Positions 5,422 through 23,514 of a stretch of DNA of 29,298 bases are shown here, piece by piece. This DNA comes from a virus. The stretch spans positions 9,547 through 38,844 of IMG/VR virus record IMGVR_UViG_3300002231_000761, one strand, 5' to 3'. The notes under the pieces were generated by a model. That model was not told where the DNA came from. It was given only the letters and a program-made list of their open reading frames with translations, and made no database searches. The translations under genes were made by a program, and so were the position numbers. Each line of letters opens with the position of its first letter. Positions within the stretch are counted from its first letter, which is position 1.

Positions 5422-5492
5422 GGGTGATCTCCTGGAAAAATGAGCAATATAACCATATTGCTTTAATTCTAGAAATCACCCTGGTGACCACC
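5422..5492 (+). repeat. structured intergenic repeat, copy A
   Basis: The 116-base gap between tube and chaperone genes holds nested pairings: GGGTGAT (5422-5428) with ATCACCC (5475-5481), CTGGAA (5432-5437) with TTCTAG (5467-5472, one G-U), and AGCAATAT (5443-5450) with ATATTGCT (5455-5462) around loop AACC. A GGTGACCACC motif follows. Parts recur at 18.5 kb (ATATAACCATATT, CCCTGGTGA) and 20.8 kb (AAAATGAGCAATATA). No T run follows, so it is not a standard terminator. It may set mRNA levels between tube and chaperone. Confidence 0.7.
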
Positions 5493-5521
5493 CTAGAGCC
5501 GCTGTTAGTGAGGAAATAAAA

Positions 5522-18357: not shown

Positions 18358-18398
18358 CTGCCGAGCCAAGGCAAGCCTTCCAAGGCTCGGCAGTTTTT
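18358..18398 (+). terminator. strong intrinsic terminator of the late operon
   Basis: CTGCCGAGCC (18358-18367) pairs perfectly with GGCTCGGCAG (18384-18393), a ten-pair GC-rich stem with a small inner AAGG/CCTT stem, followed at once by T5 (18394-18398). Confidence 0.9.
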
Positions 18399-18411
18399 CA
18401 GGCGGCGACTT

Positions 18412-18444
18412 CAGCTGGTCTAAATTAACGGCCAGCTGCTTTTT
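18412..18444 (+). terminator. second tandem intrinsic terminator
   Basis: CAGCTGGTC (18412-18420) pairs with GGCCAGCTG (18430-18438 with one G-U), loop about nine bases, followed by C and T5 (18440-18444). Placed 13 bases after the first terminator, so the late transcript has a double stop. Confidence 0.85.
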
Positions 18445-18496
18445 ACTAAGTAGCTTTGCATTTTAAGCAAATATAGCTTTCAAAATGTATTCTCTA

Positions 18497-18585
18497 GGAT
18501 CCCCTGGGATTCAACTTGAAATCAATGATAGCCAAGATATATAACCATATTATTTTAATGCTAGGTGAGCCCTGGTGAGCCCAAG
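18497..18585 (+). repeat. structured intergenic repeat, copy B
   Basis: Shares ATATAACCATATT (18539-18551), a TTTAATnCTAG block and CCCTGGTGA (18570-18578) with the 5.4 kb copy, in the same order and similar spacing. It also has a perfect tandem GGTGAGCCC pair (18564-18572 and 18574-18582, one base apart). A further piece at 18681-18701 (CCCTTTAAAATCAATAACTT plus A) matches the start of the 20.8 kb copy at 20 of 21 bases. There is no ORF here. Confidence 0.65.
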
Positions 18586-18717
18586 GACAGCAGTTTAAGT
18601 AACTTCCTTAGCGCCCCTGTATATAGCGCTCGGGAGAGGGCTGATTTATCAAGTCTTATTAGGTCGGATATTACATTAACCCCTTTAAAATCAATAACTT
18701 ATTAGCCTTATTAAGTC

Positions 18718-18745
18718 TTGTCTTGCAGGCACCGGCATGTATAAC
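18718..18745 (+). promoter_or_regulatory. possible promoter ahead of the GC-rich hairpin region
   Basis: TTGTCT (18718-18723), 16-base spacer, TATAAC (18740-18745). Fair but not perfect boxes. If active it would transcribe the structured segment that follows. A second TATAAC lies at 18757-18762 without a good -35. Confidence 0.35.
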
Positions 18746-18886
18746 CTGCGTGCACCTATAACGTCATGACGGGTGGGCAGGTACATGGTGTGTACATAGG
18801 CGGTAAAACCACGCGCCTGTAATAGCGTGGGACCTAGGCGTACGACGTCTCTTCTACGGCGTTATGGGCGCGCCCGGGCATAACGA
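18725..18886. ncRNA. GC-rich run of hairpins, candidate noncoding RNA or DNA signal
   Basis: No ORF worth naming. Consecutive stems: GCAGG/CCTGC (18725-18729, 18745-18749), GTACA/TGTAC (18781-18785, 18791-18795), CCACGC/GCGTGG (18809-18814, 18825-18830), ACGACGT/ACGGCGT with one mismatch (18842-18848, 18856-18862) and GTTATG/CATAAC (18861-18866, 18879-18884); the last two compete. A GGGCGCGCCC palindrome lies in the final loop. GC content is clearly higher than in the flanks. It could be a structured RNA, an origin or a packaging signal; nothing decides between these. Confidence 0.4.
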
Positions 18887-18898
18887 GCATAATTGAGA

Positions 18899-18927
18899 TT
18901 TACAACGAGAAAAAAATAGCTTATAAT
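18899..18927 (+). promoter_or_regulatory. sigma70-type promoter for the helicase gene
   Basis: TTTACA (18899-18904), 17-base spacer, perfect TATAAT (18922-18927). The start of transcription would fall near 18934, giving a leader of about 105 bases before ATG 19039. Confidence 0.85.
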
Positions 18928-18935
18928 AAATTTTT

Positions 18936-19021
18936 AGGGGTAAGGCCTCATAAATTAGGCTTCCTCGTTGTTTCTCTATCATGCCGTGAGCACGATTGAT
19001 TTTGAAGCCTTACCTCTTTTT
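18936..19021 (+). promoter_or_regulatory. attenuator-like leader of the helicase gene
   Basis: AGGGGTAAGGC (18936-18946) pairs with GCCTTACCTCT (19007-19017), eleven pairs with one G-U, and is followed by a T run (to 19021), so closing this stem looks like a terminator. Within the 60-base loop GCCT (18945-18948) can pair with AGGC (18957-18960), which uses bases of the large stem and could compete with it. The ribosome site AGGA (19027-19030) comes directly after. The layout suggests a switch, but no known riboswitch class is recognised. Confidence 0.5.
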
Positions 19022-19038
19022 GATAAAGGAAGATATTA

Positions 19039-20775
19039 ATGAGAATAACTCGTGTCGGCCGTTACCTACATATTCATTGTTCAACTGCCCATTATCCAAA
19101 TCTTCGAACATTACCTGGTTTTAAACGAGAACTTGAAAAAGGCTTAATAAAAGCAGAACCGTCTCGGGCAAATCTTGAGCATCTTCTTGAGAACTTTCCT
19201 GCTGCTAAGTGGGAATCCGAAGATTACCTTAGAATTCAGAAATTAGAGAGCCTTGAAAAAAGCTCAATAGAAGAATATAACGAATTTGATTTTGACTTCA
19301 AACTACCGCCATATCAGCATCAAATTGAAGCTTTTTATAGATCCGCAGACATGCCAGGATTTGCTTATTTTATGGAAATGGGCACAGGTAAAACAAAAGT
19401 TTTAATCGATAATATTGCTTATCTTTGGCTTAAAGGAAAAATCGAAGGAGCGCTTATTTTGGCACCAAATGGTGTTCACGAACAGTTTATTGAGGAACAG
19501 CTTGAAATCCACATGCCTAACTTTTGTGATTACATTTCTTTTTCTCATGCTTCCGGTGGTAAAGTAGCTTGGCGCAAAAAATATGAATCGTTTATGGATT
19601 ACAAAGGCCCTTGGTGTAAGATATTGGCGATAAACATCGAGGCGTTAAGTCATAATTCAGGCCTTCAGAAAGGATCACAGTTTTTAAAAAGTTTTGACGG
19701 CCGAAGGAAAAAGGTTCTAATAGCTGTAGATGAGTCTACGAGAATCAAGTCACGTTCATCAATTAGAACAAAAAACGCTTTCAAACTTCGAGCGCCTTGT
19801 TCTTATGCCAGAATTCTTTCTGGAAGCCCAATAACACGAGGGGTCGAAGATTTATTTAATCAATTTAAATTTCTAAGCCCAAATATTTTAGGGTATACGA
19901 GTTATTATACCTTTAAAAACAGATACTGTGTCGTAGAGCAAGAAAATCATTTCGTCAAAACACGTAAAGGTGCATTAAAAGAAGTTGAAGTTGAGCATAT
20001 TCAAGATTATAAAAATATGGATGAACTCAAACGAAAAGTTTTACCCTGGTGCCATCGAGCCACAAAAGATGAGTGCTTAGATTTACCGCCGAAAATATAT
20101 AAAAATCGTTTTGTTCCGATATCTGATGAGCAGCGAAAAGCCTATAGAGAATTAGCTAGAGAAATGGAAATCGAATTAAATGGTCAATATCTTTCAGCTG
20201 CTATGGCAATTGTTCGATTAACTAAGCTTCAACAAATTCTTTGTGGTTTTTTAAGAATGGGAGATGAAAAAGACTATATTTTTAAGAAAAACCCCCGTCT
20301 TATTGCCGCACAAGAATGGGTAGAAGAAGCTCAAGGACAAGTAGTTATTTGGGCCCGGTTCACTCGAGATATCGATCTTCTTTGTGAAGCTTTTCCAGGA
20401 GACCATGTTCGGTATGATGGTAAAGTAAATAAAACTGAGCGTAAAAAAGCAAAAGAAGATTTTTTAGCTGAAAATAAACGCATTTTTATTGGTAAGCCGG
20501 CGTCAGGTGGACTTGGTTTAAATTGGCTGGTAGGTGCACATGACGTTCTTTACTTTTCGAATAGTTTTGATGCAGAGCACCGCTGGCAATCTGAAGACAG
20601 GAACCATCGAATGGGTACCAAGAAAACGGTCACTTACACTGACCTCGTGGTACCGAAATCTATAGACACGTACATCCTCACAGCCCTGCGCTCCAAAAAG
20701 GATATCGCCACCATGGTTACGGAAGATATTCGTGATCTATTGAGAGAAGTTATTCTTCGAGCAAAAACCCTTTGA
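19039..20775 (+). CDS. SNF2-type superfamily 2 DNA helicase/ATPase
   Basis: 578 residues. Helicase motifs in order: PPYQHQ (about 90-95), Walker A MGTGKT (K118), LAPNGVHEQF (141-150), DEAH-position DEST (231-234), LSGSPITRG (260-268), and motif VI QSEDRNHRMG (517-526). The pattern, especially RNHRMGTKKTVTYTDLV, matches the phage SNF2-like group. It likely moves or remodels DNA in replication, recombination or against host defence. It is alone between a promoter with a structured leader and a repeat. ATG 19039 is eight bases after AGGA. Confidence 0.9.
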   Translation: MRITRVGRYLHIHCSTAHYPNLRTLPGFKRELEKGLIKAEPSRANLEHLLENFPAAKWESEDYLRIQKLESLEKSSIEEYNEFDFDFKLPPYQHQIEAFYRSADMPGFAYFMEMGTGKTKVLIDNIAYLWLKGKIEGALILAPNGVHEQFIEEQLEIHMPNFCDYISFSHASGGKVAWRKKYESFMDYKGPWCKILAINIEALSHNSGLQKGSQFLKSFDGRRKKVLIAVDESTRIKSRSSIRTKNAFKLRAPCSYARILSGSPITRGVEDLFNQFKFLSPNILGYTSYYTFKNRYCVVEQENHFVKTRKGALKEVEVEHIQDYKNMDELKRKVLPWCHRATKDECLDLPPKIYKNRFVPISDEQRKAYRELAREMEIELNGQYLSAAMAIVRLTKLQQILCGFLRMGDEKDYIFKKNPRLIAAQEWVEEAQGQVVIWARFTRDIDLLCEAFPGDHVRYDGKVNKTERKKAKEDFLAENKRIFIGKPASGGLGLNWLVGAHDVLYFSNSFDAEHRWQSEDRNHRMGTKKTVTYTDLVVPKSIDTYILTALRSKKDIATMVTEDIRDLLREVILRAKTL

Positions 20776-20857
20776 AATCAATAACTTAGTGGTCACCAGG
20801 CTCTCTACTTGAAAATGAGCAATATAGCTATACACATAGCTTTACGCAGGAACACCC
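20768..20857 (+). repeat. structured intergenic repeat, copy C
   Basis: Begins inside the helicase stop codon region with CCCTTTGAAATCAATAACTT (20768-20787), matching 18681-18700. GTGGTCACCAGG (20789-20800) is the reverse complement of a motif in copy A. AAAATGAGCAATATA (20812-20826) is identical to copy A. AGCTAT/ATAGCT (20826-20831, 20836-20841) replaces copy A's stem, with GCTTTA and AACACCC ends alike. The stem differs in sequence but is kept as a stem, which argues for selection on structure. Confidence 0.65.
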
Positions 20858-22525: not shown

Positions 22526-22659
22526 CAATTATTTGAAAACCGTTTTAACTAGTCTCATCACACACGGTCATAGATCTAGGCTGCCCGCGCGCGTGCCCGC
22601 GTGTGCATAAATTTATGGATTAAAAACTATTATCGGATTTCACACACGGGAGTTCGATA

Positions 22660-22760
22660 GTGATAATCATTGTCATTTGACGGTAAGTGATAATCATTGT
22701 CATTTGACGGTAAGTGATAATCATTGTCATTTAATCGTAAGTGATAATCATTGTCATTTA
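22660..22760 (+). repeat. 27-bp direct repeats of a dyad (iteron or operator cluster)
   Basis: Units start at 22660, 22687, 22714 and 22741, an exact 27-base period. Units 1 and 2 are identical, unit 3 has three changes in its second half, and unit 4 is 20 bases long. All four keep TGATAATCATTGTCA, a 7-1-7 dyad with one asymmetric pair, one base off the Fur-box form TGATAATNATTATCA. There is no ORF here. An origin with initiator-binding iterons, or a multi-site operator, are the two readings. Confidence 0.9.
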
Positions 22761-22882: not shown

Positions 22883-22955
22883 AGCAAGCGAGGTGGGACA
22901 CATAAAAAAGCCAATAGGTACTATTAGTTTCTTTTTTTATATCACCTCGCTTGCT
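22883..22955. other. very long nested hairpin in the control region
   Basis: AGCAAGCGAGGTG (22883-22895) and CACCTCGCTTGCT (22943-22955) are perfect 13-base arms. Inside, TAAAAAAG and CTTTTTTTA can pair and AATAG/CTATT form a cap with loop GTA. As RNA or single-stranded DNA it would fold almost completely. CCTCGCTTGCTCTG in the right arm recurs at 23915-23928. It could be a single-strand origin element, a bidirectional stop or a small RNA. Confidence 0.75.
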
Positions 22956-23020
22956 CTGAGGGACTGGAAAAATTGTTGTAGAATCAATCACTTAGGGGTG
23001 AAAATAAATGAAAATAATTG

Positions 23021-23049
23021 TGTACTTTTTCAGCTAGGCGTGATATAAT
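23021..23049 (+). promoter_or_regulatory. early + strand promoter, extended -10
   Basis: TGTACT (23021-23026), 17-base spacer, TGATATAAT with TATAAT at 23044-23049. The weak -35 is offset by the TGn extension. The 14-base AAATAATTGTGTAC (23012-23025) is shared with the diverging minus promoter. Confidence 0.75.
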
Positions 23050-23064
23050 AATAATGAGAGAAGG

Positions 23065-23178
23065 AAATGTCCTTGATCTCGCCCGCCCGGGCCGCGACAA
23101 CGAGAACCGCGCCGCCGGGAAACCCCGAAGCTAAATGTTTCGGATTCACTGGACTTCACAGTCCGATCTTTAAAAATA
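23065..23178 (+). promoter_or_regulatory. GC-rich structured 5' leader of the 107-residue protein gene
   Basis: About 130 bases between the promoter and ATG 23191 have no ORF. TCTCG and CGAGA enclose a very GC-rich section with CCCGGGC; CCGAA/TTCGG and GGACT/AGTCC hairpins follow. The GC peak contrasts with the AT-rich flanks. Ribosome site GAGG lies just after. No riboswitch family is recognised. Confidence 0.4.
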
Positions 23179-23190
23179 TGAGGATATATC

Positions 23191-23514
23191 ATGACTAAGC
23201 GTAACGTTAGTTCTAAGAATGCCAGTTCCAAAAAAGCCCCAGTCACGGCCGCAAACCGCAAGGCTGCAGCCAAGACCGAAGCAAAAAAGGAAGCTCCGAA
23301 AGAGTTAACCGCCAAGCAGAAAGCTCGGCAAGCAATGTTAGCTCGCACAGTCTCTCTCGAGGTTGTTGAAAATCCGAAGCGCGATGGCTCGAAAGCCCGC
23401 GATCGATTTGCCTTCTACCAGGATGGAATGACCGTCAAAGAGTTTCTGGAAGCTGGTGGAACGATGGGAGATATCTACCATGATCAAGGTCACGGATTCA
23501 TCACCCTATCGTAA
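23191..23514 (+). CDS. early protein with basic Ala/Lys tail and conserved C-terminal domain
   Basis: 107 residues. Residues 1-50 are Lys/Ala/Ser-rich and likely flexible, as in DNA-binding tails. The C-terminal half reads NPKRDGSKARDRFAFYQDGM, TVKEFLEAGGTMGDI and HGFITL, a compact domain I have the impression occurs in other phage proteins of unknown role. A nucleic-acid-binding role is inferred only from charge. It has its own promoter, leader and terminator, so it is probably strongly expressed early. Confidence 0.75.
   Translation: MTKRNVSSKNASSKKAPVTAANRKAAAKTEAKKEAPKELTAKQKARQAMLARTVSLEVVENPKRDGSKARDRFAFYQDGMTVKEFLEAGGTMGDIYHDQGHGFITLS

Follow-up and report, generated by a model that had tools for sequence, protein, structure and literature searches.

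The gene-free stretch between the late terminators and the helicase gene of this phage is a succession of separate features, the core of which resembles a DNA site rather than a chain of RNA hairpins. On the basis of sequence comparison we propose, at roughly even chances, that the core (18646-18884) acts in cis as an IHF-organised DNA site, likely a replication-origin-like one, and that the adjoining DNA (18899-19038) holds the helicase promoter followed by a leader that is terminator-like. A gene-free stretch that seemed to lack features thereby becomes a testable site, and two paired elements are predicted at the early/late boundaries of the genome.

The window, that is, the whole stretch of 29,298 nucleotides that was analysed, covers positions 9547-38844 of a 50,935-base IMG/VR phage contig (C1; coordinates with this prefix refer to the contig, all others to the window), whose sequence contains several N. 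Since a 149-base direct repeat with 98% identity is common to both contig ends, the contig is probably a circle that is complete or nearly so. The late genes (terminase, capsid, tail and lysis) extend from about C1:4810 to C1:27,520 and the early genes (helicase, primase-like, UvrD-like helicase and DNA polymerase A) from C1:28,585 via the contig ends to C1:3618; the gene-free stretch therefore sits at the late-to-early boundary. The other early/late boundary is formed by a 1.2-kb gene-free region (C1:3619-4809) that precedes a putative small-terminase ORF and TerL. In line with the first-pass annotation, no ORF of at least 50 amino acids is present on either strand of 18467-19038, and two strong terminators are located just 5′ of it (local fold z -2.0 to -5.2). 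The first, a strong intrinsic terminator at 18358-18398 on the + strand (CTGCCGAGCC..GGCTCGGCAG-TTTTT), has a 10-bp perfect stem (inverted repeat I5, 100% complementary; z -3.4 to -5.2), and the second intrinsic terminator, at 18413-18446 on the same strand (CAGCTGG..CCAGCTG-CTTTTT), yields a z of -2.0 over 18400-18459. Both close the late operon. The gene-free DNA ends at the DNA helicase gene (19039-20775, + strand; phrog_62 DNA helicase, E 7e-116).

We are confident that a DNA element in this region is duplicated within the genome. The arrangement of about 230 bp, comprising repeats, an IHF site and a GC-rich block, occupies 18646-18877 on the + strand and recurs as a diverged inverted copy (copy 2) at C1:4026-3835, outside the window, where it precedes the terminase genes and marks the other early/late boundary. 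Over 45 bp, 18669-18713 is 91% identical to the opposite strand of C1:4006-3962. The GC parts are alike too: 18849-18877 aligns with C1:3861-3835 at a score above 500/500 shuffles, and a loose alignment of the GC block between the copies lies about 5 s.d. above shuffles. Both copies display the same order of CTTATTA repeats, IHF site, GC block and conserved GC end, in opposite orientation. In the window copy, CTTATTA occurs at 18655, 18698 and 18707 (+ strand, within 18655-18713) as part of an AT-rich tract whose duplex stability is low. Half of the CTTATTA motifs of the contig (10 of 20) are found in or beside the two element copies, where the density of TTATT is 12 to 15 times that of the genome. 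The repeats are spaced by 43 and 9 in the window and by 10, 10, 11, 31 and 9 in copy 2, with one CTATTA counted. The 60-bp stretch from 18652 falls within the 2% of lowest stability genome-wide, as does its counterpart in copy 2, and in both copies this stretch adjoins DNA in roughly the top 1-3% of stability or higher. The GC-rich block, previously described as standing out, does so: 18725-18884 is 58% GC, belongs to the most stable 0.2-10% of the 60-bp stretches of the genome and is mildly palindrome-rich, and its right end GCGTTATGGGCGCGCCCGG is common to copy 2. An exact search of IMG/VR for the IHF site together with two CTTATTA returned no match in other viral contigs, and the repeat part has therefore not been seen elsewhere.

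The organising feature of the element is a sequence that the first-pass annotation had listed as repeat B and that we recover at 18682-18701 on the + strand (CCTTTAAAATCAATAACTTA); related sequences are present at 20769-20788 and beyond the window. In all probability this is an IHF site, and by prediction a nearly ideal one, judging from its composition and distribution. Its core AATCAATAACTTA (18689-18701) matches the IHF consensus WATCAANNNNTTR, and 5 of the 6 bases at the position of the upstream tract are A or T. Over 77 related sites among the matches listed, A/T content peaks at -16 to -11 from ATCAA, a distance from the core that we take to be the same as in the lambda H′ site. The site resembles the lambda H′, cosB I1 and oriC IBS1 IHF sites in its WATCAANNNNTTR core, in having an A/T tract 5′ of it at the customary spacing and in its intergenic position, and it resembles known IHF sites in being restricted to Proteobacteria and their phages; it differs in an extended conserved 5′ part (CCTT) that the usual consensus lacks. 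An upstream A-tract is a property of strong IHF sites (PMC8421141), and both the IHF consensus and the restriction of IHF to few phyla such as proteobacteria have been described (PMC10380432).

The wider distribution of the motif agrees with this assignment. The 20-mer pattern CCTTTRAAATCAATAACTTA is present in more than 118 IMG/VR viral contig stretches among the matches listed, compared with 4 matches once a single core base is changed and about one match expected by chance according to our own arithmetic; the first two counts argue that the core bases of the pattern are under selection. The contexts of the matches are unrelated: they precede promoters or lie beside tRNA ends or other repeats. 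After removal of near-identical copies, 82 distinct sites remained among the matches listed, 77 of them with enough flank, and 70 of these 77 sites fall outside ORFs, even though ORFs make up 84% of that DNA. An IHF-type motif is widely used between phage genes. Among bacterial genomes, taken as one genome per species, CCTTTAAAATCAATAACTTA is present in 71 stretches, 67 of which belong, by record title, to Proteobacteria in the broad sense; the remaining four are a Levilactobacillus plasmid and MAG contigs of Acidobacteria, Nitrospirae and Sericytochromatia. Within the phage itself, 7 of 12 IHF-consensus sites are located in the intergenic 10% of the genome (p=5e-5). The window contains a second predicted IHF site at 20769-20788 (+ strand; CCTTTGAAATCAATAACTTA), which overlaps the end of the helicase gene, and an intergenic consensus match at 22982-22994 (+ strand; AATCAATCACTTA). 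In contigs with a related capsid gene, the sole DNA in common with the region was the IHF motif, in the form of weak matches, and a literature search for the core 14-mer retrieved unrelated papers only. The predicted site points to a proteobacterial host with IHF and to an exact position of protein binding. Moreover, the 20-base motif can be used directly to flag control regions in phages that have not been cultivated, because it is intergenic in dozens of distinct contexts.

An origin-like function is put first because phased repeats, combined with an IHF site and AT-rich DNA, are the anatomy that iteron origins share, and because TTATT is dense in the elements. Plasmid iterons are generally in helical phase, several iteron origins require IHF, and opening of the pSC101 and R6K origins involves it (PMC5043065); the oriC unwinding element includes TTATT motifs (PMC10380432). 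In the proposed mechanism, host IHF would bind 18682-18701 and bend the DNA sharply, while an initiator or regulator of phage or host origin would occupy the CTTATTA repeats, whose spacing may correspond to roughly whole helical turns. The strands would open at the easily melted repeat tract beside the very stable GC-rich block, and the inverted diverged copy upstream of the terminase genes would constitute a second such site at the other early/late boundary. The element shares short direct repeats, whose spacing may be roughly helical, an IHF site and the placement of AT-rich beside GC-rich DNA with the iteron origins of pSC101, R6K gamma and P1 (PMC5043065), but differs from them in that its repeats are few and only 7 bp long, in lacking a DnaA box or known initiator and in having two inverted copies per genome. 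What speaks against an origin is that the window copy holds only three clear, short repeats, whose spacing of 43 and 9 fits whole turns loosely. A DnaA box with at most one mismatch was found in neither element, GC skew along the contig has no turning point, and no initiator gene was recognised in the phage. IHF sites also have roles at promoters and in packaging and recombination. Replication as the purpose of the core, which we argue by analogy, is given chances just short of even. The suggestion of the first-pass annotation that the stretch might be a packaging or replication site holds up as far as a DNA site is concerned, given the predicted IHF site, the repeats with their possibly helical spacing, the melting tract beside the stable block and the second copy. 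That paired, inverted, IHF-organised origin-like elements bracket the early region and build on an extended form of the IHF motif, CCTTTRAAATCAATAACTTA, widespread among proteobacterial phages, is a broader proposal that we consider unlikely. We know of no described phage with such a two-origin or boundary arrangement.

Downstream of the core, the earlier claim of a TTTACA-17-TATAAT promoter is confirmed by a sigma-70 promoter at 18899-18927 on the + strand (11/12 matches), which should direct transcription of the helicase gene from a start near 18934. The promoter is supported by two promoter-like sites (C1:41950 and C1:49915) that share the bases around its -10 element. The stem of 11 pairs is present as well: 18936-18946 pairs with 19007-19017, including one G-T pair, and TTTTT and the ribosome site come after it. 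Shuffled sequences reach 6.6 pairs on average, and 11 pairs in 1 of 400 cases. As the stem is this unusual and ends in five T, a terminator-like leader at 18934-19022 (+ strand) is plausible, in which the stem would join the predicted 5′ end to the bases before the T run (z -2.9 on the + strand, -5.4 on the - strand). This leader could function as a transcription attenuator or give rise to an RNA of about 88 nt, a reading that is independent of the core, may coexist with it and has, in our view, somewhat less than an even chance. In its favour are the rarity of the stem, the z of -2.9, the T5 directly after it and the potential of AAGGCCT, AGGCTTC and GAAGCCTTAC to pair alternatively, as judged by eye. 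With its promoter, short leader and stem followed by a T run before the ribosome site, the arrangement is that of terminator-type attenuator leaders, from which it differs by a 60-nt loop and by having neither a leader peptide nor a known ligand domain. The loop closed by the stem is long for an intrinsic terminator, and no leader peptide was discernible by eye; a small ORF that begins with GTG within the leader, also picked out by eye, was set aside as it has no ribosome site. Furthermore, the - strand folds better than the + strand, and a DNA inverted repeat is thus possible too. The longer piece 18895-19045 is not unusual on the + strand (z -0.77), and no Rfam family matched the leader. Of the switch formerly suggested to control the helicase, the stem and T run proved real and unusual, but nothing sets a switch apart from a plain attenuator, a 5′-protecting stem or a DNA inverted repeat.

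Among the alternative functions of the core, control of early and late transcription comes next, although we rate it as somewhat unlikely. IHF and a repeat-binding regulator would switch or insulate the operons at their boundaries, without any part in replication. Both copies are indeed located at early/late boundaries, and a good promoter follows downstream of the window copy. In other phages, a promoter with at least 10/12 matches lies within -80 to +120 at 15 of the 77 20-mer sites among the matches listed, compared with 6% at random positions. However, about 200 bp, with the GC block among them, separate the IHF site from the promoter downstream of it here, whereas the distance is 24-45 bp in most of the phage cases, and copy 2 faces away from the late genes.

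Slightly less probable still is a role in packaging, in which the element would be a cos- or pac-like recognition site for terminase, bent by IHF as lambda cosB is, and the window copy would be a second or decayed version. Copy 2 and three IHF-consensus matches are situated in the 1.2-kb gene-free region immediately preceding the putative small-terminase ORF and TerL, and in lambda cosB an IHF site is placed between TerS sites (PMC4856287). Common to cosB and the element are the IHF site among repeats and, for copy 2, the position just before the terminase genes. Yet IHF sites adjoin terminase genes in copy 2 only; the window copy is about 24 kb away from them, a unique site is not expected twice, the contig ends fall elsewhere, and, unlike in cosB, there is no identified cosN-like nick site.

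That the GC-rich block is a structured noncoding RNA, as the first-pass annotation had envisaged with a chain of five hairpins, is highly improbable: although the block is rich in GC and can be drawn as consecutive stems, it folds no better than shuffled sequence (-48.5 compared with a shuffle mean of -48.6 for pairs within 40 nt, z 0.03; z -0.58 for pairs within 60 nt and -0.89 unrestricted), matches no Rfam family and has no good upstream promoter reading into it, the only good one being downstream. Short palindromes are mildly enriched in the block, with 62 of 2000 shuffles equalling or exceeding their number.

No close relative of the phage was detected by several proteins and two DNA searches, and the region was shared by none of the sequences found; in particular, a DNA search against 50,697 phage records revealed no close relative. 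The best relatives of the helicase reached 33% in IMG/VR and 39% in named phages, those of the capsid 56% and those of the polymerase 32%. The terminase had none in IMG/VR and reached 48% in named phages, and a Pam3 gp34-like early gene reached 32%.

A further, dispersed family of intergenic elements (element E, 55-80 bp) is represented in the gene-free stretch by copy E1 at 18540-18595 (+ strand; consensus about TATAACCATATT..TTTAATGCTAGGTGAGCCCTGGTGRCCACTAGGACAGCAG). Further copies are found at 5440-5510, at 20780-20856 (- strand) and at the contig ends (C1:10-115, - strand), and their alignments exceed 200/200 shuffles for most pairs. The copies have TATAACCATATT and CCTGGTGRCCACTAGG-like parts in common, and the one at 5440 has at its start an inverted repeat of 8 bp without mismatches, AGCAATAT-AACC-ATATTGCT. 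A fifth copy, C1:44915-45020, was not counted as it overlaps coding sequence. One half of E1 had no match in IMG/VR.

Several observations concern other parts of the genome. Outside the window, the gene-free 1.2 kb that precede the terminase genes (C1:3640-4809) contain repeated GGGCCTCAAATTTT and CCGGACCCTTGCCGGGCCTCACCGAACC units and are a candidate packaging site. Copy 2 is faced by an IHF-consensus site accompanied by two CTTATTA at C1:3610-3634, and another IHF-consensus site follows copy 2 at C1:3829. In the window, a 27-bp unit (AGTGATAATCATTGTCATTTGACGGTA) is repeated 3.7 times with 95% agreement at 22659-22759. Each unit includes TGATAATCATTGTCA, one mismatch away from a 7-1-7 Fur-box palindrome, and the array could be a regulator array or iterons. 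A long inverted repeat, AGCAAGCGAGGTG...CACCTCGCTTGCT, at 22887-22955 has the appearance of a bidirectional terminator where two operons face each other, and the same arm sequence is found again near C1:33461. The ORF at 23191 is preceded by a GC-rich leader that contains short inverted repeats, and the stretch before this ORF (22980-23190) also holds an IHF-consensus site and, near 23044, a TATAAT. The small early protein encoded at 23191-23511 has no family match; it is related to another at C1:42005-42500, with about 71% DNA identity over 113 bp. Among the other viral contigs, the IHF 20-mer is close to perfect DnaA boxes (TTATCCACA) in two (L083 and L130), of which L083 also carries GGGTCA repeats; these two loci are likely origins. 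A recurring arrangement, seen in four more contigs (L061, L107, L124 and L136), consists of a pair of inverted IHF-type sites separated by about 40 bp (CCTTTAAAATCAATAACTTA...TAAGTTATTGATTTATAAGG).
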